From contig DATNEW010000026.1 of NCBI GenBank assembly GCA_035606695.1, forward strand, positions 248,001 through 312,000: a DNA stretch of 64,000 bases. Reading direction: 5' to 3'. How positions within the stretch are numbered: the first letter of the stretch is position 1; the number at the start of each line of letters is the position of its first letter. The notes under the pieces were generated by a model. That model made no database searches. It worked only from the letters and a program-made list of their open reading frames with translations, and was not told the DNA's origin. Made by a program: the position numbers and the translations under genes. This document shows positions 61,132-64,000 of the stretch, piece after piece. Source of the stretch: Gemmatimonadaceae bacterium. GTDB lineage: Bacteria > Gemmatimonadota > Gemmatimonadetes > Gemmatimonadales > Gemmatimonadaceae.

Positions 61132-61467
61132 TCAGGCCTCCGTCTTGAGGAGTCGGGCGATCGCGGTGACGCGCCGCGACCAATCGGCTGTCTCGACTTC
61201 GAGTTGCTTACGGCCGGCGCGCGTCAGCGAGTAGAACTTCGCCCGGCGCGCGTTTTCGGTCTCACGCCACTCGGCGTCGAGCAGCCCGGCGCGCTCGAGG
61301 CGTTGCAGGGCGACCAGGAGCGAGCCTGGATTCACCTTGAACACGCCGCGCGAGATCTGCTCGACGCGCCGCGCGATGCCAAAGCCGTGCAACGGCGCGA
61401 GGCTCAACGTTTTGAGGATGAGCATGTCGAGCGTGCCGGGGATGACGTCGGTGTTCGGCTCGTCCAT
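61132..61467 (-). CDS. PadR family transcriptional regulator
   Basis: 111 aa from ATG 61467 (MDEPNTDVIPGTLDMLILKTLSLAPLHGFGIARRVEQ); the upstream extension to 61539 would run through the promoter. Wing and recognition region NPGSLLVALQRLERAGLLDAEWRETENARRAKFYSLTRAGRKQLEVE. Divergent from the met operon; the 20-bp palindrome between them is its likely operator. Confidence 0.93.
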   Translation of the reverse strand: MDEPNTDVIPGTLDMLILKTLSLAPLHGFGIARRVEQISRGVFKVNPGSLLVALQRLERAGLLDAEWRETENARRAKFYSLTRAGRKQLEVETADWSRRVTAIARLLKTEA

Positions 61468-61479
61468 CGTTCCTTCCAG

Positions 61480-61493
61480 TTGATCGTCAAGAG
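61480..61493 (-). promoter_or_regulatory. Second copy of the palindrome half-site near the padR start
   Basis: TTGATCGTCAAGAG repeats TTGATTGTCAAGAG at 61514-61527 with one mismatch, 34 bp apart. It overlaps the predicted transcription start of padR and could bind the same dimeric regulator. Confidence 0.45.
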
Positions 61494-61494
61494 G

Positions 61495-61524
61495 AGAGTA
61501 TGACCCGCTCCTGTTGATTGTCAA
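61495..61524 (-). promoter_or_regulatory. padR operon promoter
   Basis: Minus strand: -35 TTGACA (61524-61519), 18-bp spacer, -10 TACTCT (61500-61495). The -35 is the left half of the 20-bp palindrome. Confidence 0.6.
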
Positions 61525-61538
61525 GAGTACTCTTGACA
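61519..61538. promoter_or_regulatory. 20-bp perfect palindrome holding two back-to-back -35 boxes
   Basis: TGTCAAGAGTACTCTTGACA is its own reverse complement. Its right end TTGACA is the -35 of the met operon and its left end, read on the minus strand, is the -35 of the padR operon. A protein bound here would block both promoters. Confidence 0.7.
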
Positions 61539-61561
61539 CGGGTCCGGTCGCGGCGTATCAT
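61533..61561 (+). promoter_or_regulatory. met operon promoter
   Basis: -35 TTGACA (61533-61538), 17-bp spacer, -10 TATCAT (61556-61561): near-consensus housekeeping promoter. Predicted transcription start about 61568, some 12 nt before the riboswitch. Confidence 0.78.
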
Positions 61562-61579
61562 GATCTCACAATCGAAGTC

Positions 61580-61632
61580 TCGTGGTCATTTGCCGCCTCT
61601 TGCCGCCACGTAAAACAATGTGCTAAAAAGCG
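61580..61632 (+). ncRNA. SAM-II riboswitch (SAM_alpha type) of the met operon
   Basis: P1 is CGTGGT (61581-61586) with GCCACG (61605-61610). The loop has CATTTGCCG and CTTGC as in the SAM-II consensus, and the 3' side is ACAATGTGCTAAAAAGC (61615-61631), including the diagnostic GCTAAAAAG. The pseudoknot CC:GG of the known structure is replaced here by GC in the loop (61592-61593) and GC at 61630-61631, a compensatory change. SAM-II aptamers are known upstream of metA/metX genes; SAM binding stabilises the pseudoknot. Located just after the predicted transcription start and before a terminator. Confidence 0.88.
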
Positions 61633-61636
61633 ATCG

Positions 61637-61668
61637 AGCCCGGCGGCCACCATCGCCCGGGCTTTTTT
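61637..61668 (+). terminator. Terminator T1, probable riboswitch expression platform
   Basis: AGCCCGG (61637-61643) pairs with CCGGGCT (61657-61663), followed by six Ts (61663-61668). It begins 5 nt after the aptamer. GCGAT (61630-61634) could instead pair with ATCGC (61652-61656); this would use the pseudoknot nucleotides 61630-61631, giving a simple SAM-off switch. Confidence 0.8.
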
Positions 61669-61678
61669 GTTGTCCCTC

Positions 61679-61819
61679 ATGCGAACGATCATGTCGATGA
61701 CCATGCGAATGATGCGAATGATGCGAATGACCATGCGAATGACCATGCGAATGACCATGCGAATGACGACCGCTTCTCTCTCGAGAGAGTCGCACGGAGG
61801 ACGACGCATGCGCGGATGA
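61679..61819 (+). CDS. Met-rich leader peptide upstream of metX
   Basis: 46 codons. Met occupies positions 1, 5, 7, 9, 11, 12, 14, 15, 17, 19, 21, 23, 25, 27, 29 and 44: 16 of 46, and 15 of the first 29. The DNA repeats ATGACCATGCGA and ATGATGCGA, so the run may have grown by tandem duplication, yet only this frame is open and Met-rich. It lies between terminator T1 and terminator T2 in the metX-metB leader. No SD precedes ATG 61679. By analogy with classical amino-acid attenuators (for example trp, his, leu), stalling for lack of charged Met-tRNA would control T2. Probably has no function as a protein. Confidence 0.78.
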   Translation: MRTIMSMTMRMMRMMRMTMRMTMRMTMRMTTASLSRESHGGRRMRG

Positions 61820-61871
61820 GCGCGCCATCGCCGCGAGCAACCCGCTCACCCCTCCCCGGTCTCTTCTCGAG
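61776..61871 (+). promoter_or_regulatory. Candidate alternative pairings controlling T2
   Basis: CTCTCTCGAGAGAG (61776-61789), within the leader ORF just after the Met run, is self-complementary. Its part CTCGAGAGAG (61780-61789) can also pair with CTCTTCTCGAG (61861-61871), which forms most of the T2 loop, with one bulged T. The two alternatives are mutually exclusive and lie where a stalled ribosome would influence the choice. The assignment is tentative. Confidence 0.4.
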
Positions 61872-61887
61872 CCCGGGGATTTTTTTT
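61853..61887 (+). terminator. Terminator T2, attenuator before metX
   Basis: TCCCCGG (61853-61859) pairs with CCGGGGA (61873-61879), 13-nt loop, then eight Ts (61880-61887). It sits 33 nt after the leader stop and 14 nt before the metX start codon, inside the operon's leader. Confidence 0.85.
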
Positions 61888-61901
61888 CGCCGCCGATCGC
61901 C

Positions 61902-62807
61902 ATGACGACAACCATCGCGCAATCCACAACCACCTATGAGCTCGCCGGTCAAGCCGGCGCGCCGCTCATCGTCGTCCTCGGCGGTATCTCCGCGACGCGT
62001 CACGCGACGGCGTGGTGGAGCGACATCGTCGGCGACGCAAAGCCCATCGATACGACGCGCTACCGCGTGCTTGGCGTCGATTTCATCGACGGCGGCCGGC
62101 GTGCGGACGGCCAGCCGCGACGCGTCGTGACCACGCACGATCAGGCCGATGCGATCGCCGCGGTGCTCGACGAGATCGGCGTCGCGCGCGTTCACGCGTT
62201 CGTCGGCGCGTCGTACGGTGGAATGGTCGGACTGGCGTTCGCCGAGCGGTATCAGGAACGCATCGAGCGGCTGGTGGCGATCAGTGCGCCGCACGAACCG
62301 CATCCGATGAGCACGGCGCTGCGTGCGCTGCAGCGGCGCATCGTCAAGCTCGGCCTCGAGACGGGCCGCACGCGCTCCGCGCTCGCGATCGCGCGCGGAG
62401 TCGCGATGACGACGTACCGCAGCCGCGAAGAATTCGGCGAGCGTTTCGATCCGCGGCCCGACTCGCTGTACGATAACGACGCGACCTTTCCGGTCGAGTC
62501 GTATCTCGCGCATCACGGTGAGCAATTCGCCGACCGGTGGTCGGCCGAACGGTTCTTAGCACTCTCGCTGTCGGGGGACCTGCATCGCGTCGATCCGGCG
62601 CGCATCACGACGCCCACCGTCATCGTCGCCGCCGAGGGGGACGCGATCGTTCCGGGCGCGCAGCTCGAGGCGTTGGCGGCGACGATCGCCGCGCCGACTC
62701 GCCTGATTCATCTCGCGTCCACGTGCGGTCACGACGCCTTTCTCACGGAACCTGATGCGCTCGGGACCATTCTCGAGATCGCCATCGCCACGACTATCAT
62801 CCAATGA
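61902..62807 (+). CDS. metX: Homoserine O-acyltransferase, MetX family
   Basis: 301 aa, shorter than typical MetX (about 350-380) because the lid region is reduced. Alpha/beta-hydrolase that acylates homoserine from acyl-CoA, the first committed step of Met synthesis. Catalytic triad Ser 104 (VGASYGGMVGLAF), Asp 247 (VAAEGDAIVP) and His 277 (STCGHDAFLTEP). Family hallmarks: GGISATRHA...WW, TTYRSREEFGERF, VESYLAHHGEQFADRW. Whether it uses acetyl- or succinyl-CoA is not clear; the N-terminal LGGISATRHA resembles the MetXS succinyltransferase subgroup. No SD; coupled to metB by ATGA overlap. Confidence 0.87.
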   Translation: MTTTIAQSTTTYELAGQAGAPLIVVLGGISATRHATAWWSDIVGDAKPIDTTRYRVLGVDFIDGGRRADGQPRRVVTTHDQADAIAAVLDEIGVARVHAFVGASYGGMVGLAFAERYQERIERLVAISAPHEPHPMSTALRALQRRIVKLGLETGRTRSALAIARGVAMTTYRSREEFGERFDPRPDSLYDNDATFPVESYLAHHGEQFADRWSAERFLALSLSGDLHRVDPARITTPTVIVAAEGDAIVPGAQLEALAATIAAPTRLIHLASTCGHDAFLTEPDALGTILEIAIATTIIQ

Positions 62808-64000
62808 GCAAACTCGAATACACCCCGACCACGCGTGCCGTGCGCGCCGCGATCGCCACCGACAAGGAACATGGGGCCGTGGTCCCGCCGCTGCACCTCT
62901 CGTCCACGTTCTCGTTCGAGGGCTTCGCCAGGCCGCGGCGCTACGACTACACGCGCAGCGGAAATCCGACACGCACGAACCTGGCCGACGCTATCGCTGA
63001 TCTGGAGGGCGGGGCGGCGGGCGTGGTGACGAGCACCGGCATGTCGGCGGTGACGCTGGTGCTGCAGCTCCTGCGGCCCGGCGACACCATCGTCGCGGCG
63101 CACGATTGCTACGGTGGAACGCAGCGGCTGCTGCGCGCGCTCGCGGCGAAAGCGCACTTCACCCTGGTGTTCGCCGACTTGACGAGCGTCGAGGCGCCGT
63201 TGGAGATCGCGCGTCATGCGCCGCGGCTCGTCTGGATCGAGACGCCGAGCAATCCGTTGCTGCGCATCACGGACCTCCGTACCGTGATTCAGGCCGCACA
63301 CGCGGCCGGGGCGTTGGCCGTCGTGGACAACACCTTCTTGTCGCCGGCGCTGCAGCAGCCCGTTCGATTCGATGCCGACGTCGTCGTGCACTCGACGACG
63401 AAGTATCTGAACGGACACAGCGACGTCGTCGGCGGCGCGGTCGTGACGCGCGACAAGTCGCTCGGGCAGGAGCTCGCGTGGTGGGCCAATTGTCTCGGGA
63501 TTACCGGCGCGCCGTTCGACAGCTACCTGACGTTGCGGGGCATCCGAACGCTCCACGCGCGGCTCACGCAGCATTTGGCGTCGACGCGTGAGGTCGTTGC
63601 CGCGCTCGAGGGGCATGAGGCGGTATCACGAATTTATTATCCCGGTTTACTCACGCATCCCGGGCACGCGATCGCGGCATCGCAACAAGCCGGGTTCGGC
63701 GCGATGGTGAGCTTCGAGATCCGCGGCGGTACGGCGGCGGTCGAGACGCTTGCGGCCAATCTCGAGCTGTTCACGCTCGCCGAGTCGCTGGGTGGCGTCG
63801 AGAGTTTGATCGCGCATCCCGCGACGATGACGCATGCGTCGATGGACGCCGCGGCGCGTGCCAGCGCGGGGATTAGTGACTCGCTGGTGCGAGTGTCGGT
63901 GGGGATCGAGTCGGGAGAAGATCTGGCGCGCGATCTGGTACGGGCGCTGGATGTGGTGGCGATTGAGCACTCTTGTCATCCTGAGGGAGCGCAGCGACCG
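62804..64000 (+). CDS. metB: Cystathionine gamma-synthase / O-acylhomoserine sulfhydrylase (cut by window end)
   Basis: At least 399 codons with no stop before the window ends. PLP-dependent Cys/Met metabolism enzyme: YTRSGNPTRTNLADAIADLEGG, STGMSAVTLVLQLL, HDCYGGTQRL, IETPSNPLLRITDL, DNTFLSPALQQP, and Lys 200 in HSTTKYLNGHSDVVGG (position equivalent to the E. coli MetB lysine). Replaces the acyl group of O-acylhomoserine with cysteine or sulfide. MetB and MetZ activities are not separable by sequence alone. The start overlaps the metX stop (ATGA). The normal family end falls near 63955; the last codons are read from a GTCATCC repeat. Confidence 0.92.
   Translation, partial: MSKLEYTPTTRAVRAAIATDKEHGAVVPPLHLSSTFSFEGFARPRRYDYTRSGNPTRTNLADAIADLEGGAAGVVTSTGMSAVTLVLQLLRPGDTIVAAHDCYGGTQRLLRALAAKAHFTLVFADLTSVEAPLEIARHAPRLVWIETPSNPLLRITDLRTVIQAAHAAGALAVVDNTFLSPALQQPVRFDADVVVHSTTKYLNGHSDVVGGAVVTRDKSLGQELAWWANCLGITGAPFDSYLTLRGIRTLHARLTQHLASTREVVAALEGHEAVSRIYYPGLLTHPGHAIAASQQAGFGAMVSFEIRGGTAAVETLAANLELFTLAESLGGVESLIAHPATMTHASMDAAARASAGISDSLVRVSVGIESGEDLARDLVRALDVVAIEHSCHPEGAQRP
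63975..64000. repeat. GTCATCC repeat at the metB 3' end (truncated)
   Basis: GTCATCCTGAGGGAGCGCAG matches the word found at the end of the thioesterase gene (9034). It runs off the window. In the metB frame it is read through as HPEGAQR. Confidence 0.5.

Follow-up and report, generated by a model that had tools for sequence, protein, structure and literature searches.

A SAM-II aptamer and a putative methionine leader-peptide attenuator arranged in series before metX-metB in Gemmatimonadetes

Organization of the metX-metB leader

The analysed stretch of DNA, 64,000 nucleotides from a Gemmatimonadaceae bacterium (hereafter, the window), ends in a metX-metB operon, in which metB overlaps metX by 4 bases, continues beyond the window end and is followed by a convergent gene. 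The leader of this operon contains, in order, a promoter, a SAM-II aptamer, an intrinsic terminator (T1), a Met-rich open reading frame, a second terminator (T2) and metX. The positions of these features, together with those of the alternative pairings discussed below, are listed in Table 1. An earlier note on this DNA had described two regulatory modules in this order behind one promoter; each component was found where it had been placed, and the order is repeated in relatives. The layout is thereby confirmed in the sequence and strengthened by comparison, and the comparative evidence supports the view that both modules are functional elements that have been kept together.

Table 1. Features of the metX-metB leader and operon (window coordinates)
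Feature	Position	Strand	Description
Sigma-70-type promoter TTGACA-17-TATCAT	61533..61561	+	11/12 matches; 5' of both modules
SAM-II (SAM_alpha, RF00521) aptamer	61572..61647	+	Rfam 37.3 bits, gathering cut-off 36
Aptamer P1	61581-61585 with 61606-61610	+	100% paired in 29 leaders
Aptamer pseudoknot P2	loop CGC with GCG 61630-61632	+	93% paired in 29 leaders
Proposed antiterminator AT1	61592..61647	+	loop GCCGCC (61592-61597) with GGCGGC (61642-61647), the T1 5' arm
Intrinsic terminator T1	61637..61668	+	hairpin and U tract; -15.6 kcal/mol; retained in relatives
12-base tandem repeat CATGCGAATGAC	61678..61767	+	inside the ORF; highest-scoring array of the window
Met-rich leader peptide ORF	61679..61819	+	46 codons, 17 Met; homologous peptides in other genera; frame test
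Hairpin H1 (CCGC..CTCTC TCGA GAGAG..CACGG)	61770..61797	+	immediately 3' of the final Met codon in the run
Proposed antiterminator AT2	61783..61868	+	61783-61800 with 61851-61868
Intrinsic terminator T2	61853..61887	+	-17.8 kcal/mol, 8 U; covarying stem
metX (homoserine O-succinyltransferase)	61902..62807	+	NF006449, 344.5 bits, cut-off 296
metB (cystathionine gamma-synthase / O-succinylhomoserine thiol-lyase)	62804..64000	+	above NCBIfam cut-off

A pattern scan of the plus strand detected no promoter-like site before position 62773 other than that in Table 1, and none between T1 and the Met ORF, such that a single predicted promoter precedes both modules. A TTGAC-type -35 element is located just 5' of the aptamer in relatives as well. 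A divergent promoter-like site on the minus strand (61524-61497) lies in back-to-back orientation with the metX promoter and precedes the genes for a regulator of the PadR family (61132-61539) and for an ADOP permease; each of the two sites has a TTGACA hexamer, and these lie within about 10 bases of each other.

The SAM-II aptamer and the first terminator

The aptamer is the sole Rfam match in the window (E 8.5e-5, the whole 64 kb being searched), and its assignment to SAM-II in the earlier note was borne out by the covariance model, with a margin of 1.3 bits over the cut-off; relatives reach 61 bits. No second riboswitch or other Rfam RNA scored above cut-off in the leader. Terminator-like patterns are no more common than in shuffles (2 found versus 1.4 expected). 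Since such patterns alone match shuffle frequency and the aptamer is near the threshold, the case for the leader rests on conservation.

Examination of 29 aligned SAM-II leaders provides that conservation. The short P2 pseudoknot occupies its canonical place, immediately after GCUAAA, and shows two compensatory cells. The aptamer loop is also complementary over six pairs to the 5' arm of T1 (AT1 in Table 1), wherein 96% of the cells are paired and five are compensatory, a result as high as this being obtained in none of 500 shuffles. P2 and AT1 use the same loop bases and are mutually exclusive, so that the binding of SAM would free T1. The conserved, covarying pairing between loop and terminator thus offers SAM a plausible route to T1.

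The direction of this switch would be OFF, on account of the exclusivity of P2 and AT1 and because SAM-II elements linked to terminators have been taken as OFF switches (PMC1273637). The opposite direction, wherein a long pseudoknot stabilised by SAM prevents T1, draws on the six-pair contact between loop and T1, the conservation of which slightly exceeds that of the short P2. We consider an ON switch highly unlikely, as the short P2 is found at its canonical place and covaries, the published SAM-II elements with terminators point the other way, and such a switch would make no sense for metX.

The putative Met-rich leader peptide

The leader ORF, which encodes MRTIMSMTMRMMRMMRMTMRMTMRMTMRMTTASLSRESHGGRRMRG, contains 15 ATG triplets within 30 codons, compared to 6 in the next-best stretch of the 64 kb. 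No Shine-Dalgarno sequence precedes it, although this is also true of most long ORFs in the window, such a sequence being present in only 6 of 29. The 12-base tandem repeat inside the ORF is expanded in the window genome only, among the genomes compared. Its relatives retain homologous peptides that are free of this repeat, which indicates that the repeat arose by local expansion within a Met ORF that is older; chance or a microsatellite origin was accordingly rejected as the whole explanation of the Met run. At about 30 codons, the run is much longer here than in the relatives, whose peptides share the pattern ..MRMxM..GETDGRxRxRA followed by a stop codon.

In order to compare such leaders across the class, a covariance model of the second module (R1) was built from nine aligned second modules. 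The reading frame was then assessed over 20 codons around the R1 model start. Among 27 loci (the window excluded, and two matches with another frame left out), ATG occurs 115 times in the leader frame versus once in the other two frames, and for the 19 loci outside the model the values are 82 and 1. Since the columns used to build R1 themselves carry Met codons and the loci are not independent by descent, the p-value of this contrast serves as a guide only. The first stop in frame 0 falls 60-90 bases past the R1 model start in 28 of 28 loci. Enrichment of Cys codons by frame was not significant in these loci, where ATGC itself creates TGC in frame 1.

The GETDGRxRxRA terminus, conserved after the Met codons, could also be the mark of an arrest peptide, i.e., one that senses Met or SAM through its sequence rather than through codon supply. 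The same bases, however, form the 3' arm of H1 and part of AT2, which can explain their conservation, and the Met codons themselves are what stays in frame. An arrest peptide therefore appears very improbable.

H1, T2 and a proposed second antiterminator

The Met codons, H1 and the stop codon are placed as in attenuators of the trp type: the Met codons lie just 5' of the first hairpin, and an intrinsic terminator stands ahead of the first gene. H1 and T2 covary (19 compensatory cells in alignment A2, with none of 500 shuffles as high). When T2 was delimited automatically over 30 loci, the stem was wrongly placed in many of them, and the pooled z-score is therefore not used as main evidence.

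In the proposed antiterminator AT2, the 3' arm of H1 and the bases following it pair with the 5' arm of T2. For the conditional folds, the 5' arm of H1 was made unavailable, to mimic a stalled ribosome, and the 3' arm of T2 was treated as still to be transcribed. AT2 appeared in all nine minimum-energy folds of relatives obtained in this manner, in one of them in another register that uses bases just past the H1 3' arm. Its cells are 84.8% paired, above slid registers, with zero compensatory changes, perhaps because both arms are also held by other pairings. A conserved antiterminator of the trp type is therefore likely but not proven.

Counted from the first base of its A-site codon, a ribosome covers about 12-14 bases in the 3' direction. 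By this geometry H1 would be blocked only by ribosomes stalled at the final one or two Met codons. With the long Met run of the window, starved ribosomes may halt too early, leading to termination or to a blunted response. Starvation for Met also lowers translation initiation, and this loss may explain why Met attenuators are seldom reported.

Distribution among the Gemmatimonadetes

The order SAM-II, T1, Met ORF, T2, metX is common to two congeners that have a metX homologue, with the leader peptides MIISMRRMQMRMSMAAASLARGSDGRHRLRA and MHSMISTTAQSMRMTMTTASPTGATDGRSRMRA. In another genus the same order precedes hom-metX, with peptides such as MRATRMHMSMSTTTATPTGETDGRRRVRA. None of these peptides contains the 12-base repeat. 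A search of the family with a single peptide yielded mostly noise, yet it led to the leaders of this other genus.

R1 finds the second module across the class. A SAM-II core lies 110-200 bases 5' of the R1 match at 19 loci, distributed among 18 genomes, 14 genera and 4 families, and 6 of the 13 best R1 matches outside the model-building set have a SAM-II element. The comparative search that the earlier note had proposed recovered leaders carrying both modules; the note's description of the arrangement as rare does not stand, the arrangement recurring in at least four families of the class Gemmatimonadetes. The SAM-II element itself occurs in 165 of the 179 genomes of the window genome's family and in 225 of the 394 searched genomes of the class. 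In genome G006 (locus L164), a T2-like terminator directly precedes metX, but the contig ends there and the remainder of the leader is not assembled.

Each module also occurs alone. The window genome has a second SAM-II element, before metH, with no Met ORF. Two genomes (G041 and G042) carry SAM-II and T1 before metX, again with no Met ORF, and in a third (G073) SAM-II, T1 and a T2-like hairpin precede metX with no ATG between them. Conversely, in G009 hom is preceded by a Met ORF and T2; a promoter stands directly 5' of this ORF, and there is no aptamer.

These observations bear on a rival account, in which only the riboswitch works, the 12-base repeat that makes up the Met ORF is neutral and the hairpin of T2 is incidental. 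The aptamer belongs to a known family, the Met run of the window is a clear tandem repeat, and SAM-II stands alone before metX in some relatives, all of which would suit this account. It is difficult to reconcile with the repeat-free homologous Met peptides of other genera, which share their C-terminus and conserve their frame, with the covariation of T2 and H1, or with the existence of the second module in the absence of SAM-II; we give it very little weight.

The genes 3' of R1 matches belong to Met and Cys metabolism (hom, metX, Cys/Met PLP enzymes and metN). R1 also matches leaders with Met and Cys codons, which often occur together in R1 relatives, before genes for Cys/Met PLP enzymes, a RimK-like ATP-grasp gene and metN. 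The window genome has a second, weak R1 match (C27:287796-287914), in which the leader MTRAQTMCCCCMCLMCQPTPEGLGVHDM, rich in Cys and Met, precedes a RimK-like ATP-grasp gene; this pairing is repeated in several relatives (L181, L194, L219, L221 and L222). Cys-rich leader peptides, e.g., MCCMCSTCCCPLC, are found at three loci (L229, L230 and L231), of which L231 precedes a cysG-type tetrapyrrole methylase gene. At L233 a Met/Cys leader peptide, MNPMQSKSFATSMCCKCMCARPRG.., is followed by a metN-type ABC ATPase gene with a NIL domain. Two loose matches resemble a Leu-rich leader peptide before an HMGL-like (leuA-type) gene (L223) and a His-rich one before hisG (L227). From these Leu-, His- and Met/Cys-type matches, peptide attenuators seem to be common in the class, the window holding a Met version behind SAM-II.

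It could also be that both modules once worked and that the second, inherited from a class-wide family of Met/Cys attenuators, has been weakened or retuned here by the expanded Met run. The run is far longer than in the relatives, the stall geometry lets only its last codons act, and Met and Cys codons are frequent companions in the R1 relatives. T2, H1 and the peptide C-terminus are nonetheless still intact in the window, and we regard such a loss or shift of function as rather unlikely.

A proposed two-input gate

The reading that we consider probable is that the leader comprises two conditional terminators which together form a gate, open only when neither SAM nor charged Met-tRNA is abundant. 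From sequence and comparison we infer that the ligand binds, that transcription terminates, that the ORF is translated and ribosomes stall on it, and which way each switch acts, with SAM and Met-tRNA charging as the presumed drivers of T1 and T2, respectively. A single transcript would start just after position 61561 and meet both terminators before metX-metB. With SAM bound, the loop would be held in P2, T1 would fold and transcription would stop; when SAM is scarce, the loop would instead pair with the T1 5' arm and the polymerase would read through. The Met ORF on the read-through RNA would then be translated. Where Met-tRNA is ample, the ribosome would move on, H1 would form and T2 would terminate transcription. 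Where it is scarce, a ribosome halted at the last Met codons would cover the 5' arm of H1, and the freed 3' arm would pair with the T2 5' arm, blocking T2 and allowing metX-metB to be transcribed.

Were this reading true, bacteria would have wired a sensor that reads a metabolite directly in series with one that reads an amino acid through translation, the Met genes opening only when end product and precursor are both short, and this two-input logic would be present in many genomes. It also raises the question of how attenuation by Met can operate if translation of the leader must itself begin with Met-tRNA.

Comparison with known systems

The leader is best read as two known parts in a combination for which we found no match in the literature searched. 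In the open-access literature searched, we encountered no case in which a riboswitch and, after it, an amino-acid leader peptide serve the same pathway; within that scope, the suggestion that the arrangement is possibly undescribed holds. We lean towards the broader view that the Gemmatimonadetes harbor a class-wide family of hybrid two-input RNA gates, each combining a metabolite riboswitch with a Met (or Met/Cys) leader peptide read by the ribosome, for the same pathway. A pair of this kind would be without precedent, and its second part would be the first Met attenuator with good support, working although initiation on the leader needs Met-tRNA.

Like the attenuators of the trp/his type, the second module has an ORF rich in the amino acid of the pathway, overlapping hairpins and a terminator before the first gene; it differs in being directed to Met and in lying behind a metabolite riboswitch. 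To our knowledge, attenuation of this type is not usual for Met. A comparable peptide is the metL leader peptide (..CMCRRMCAF) proposed before metNIQ in Streptomyces lividans (PMC8079986), a short Met/Cys-codon peptide before Met transport genes which the leader at L233, a Gemmatimonadetes R1 match before metN, resembles. Unlike the present leader, metL has no riboswitch, and no typical terminator was found. The B12 riboswitches and uORFs of metE and ppe2 in Mycobacterium tuberculosis (PMC11260477) likewise join a riboswitch and a translated short ORF in one leader, but there the uORF is located inside the aptamer or 3' of it and does not serve as an attenuator for an amino acid.

Among serial elements, the SAM-II/SAM-V tandems (PMC9481103, PMC11508383) also begin with SAM-II and a terminator. 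Their second element responds to the same ligand and acts on translation, whereas here Met-tRNA charging and transcription are proposed. Leader peptides go unmentioned in the review of tandem riboswitches (PMC9481103). The nearest published logic is that of the SAM-I/T-box(Met) tandems, which precede metX and metY in Firmicutes (PMC9481103). As in the present case, these have two expression platforms per leader, SAM and Met-tRNA charging as inputs, genes of the same pathway and the same predicted logic. They differ in the class of the SAM aptamer and in their second sensor, a T box that binds uncharged tRNA and involves no translated peptide, and few examples of them are listed.
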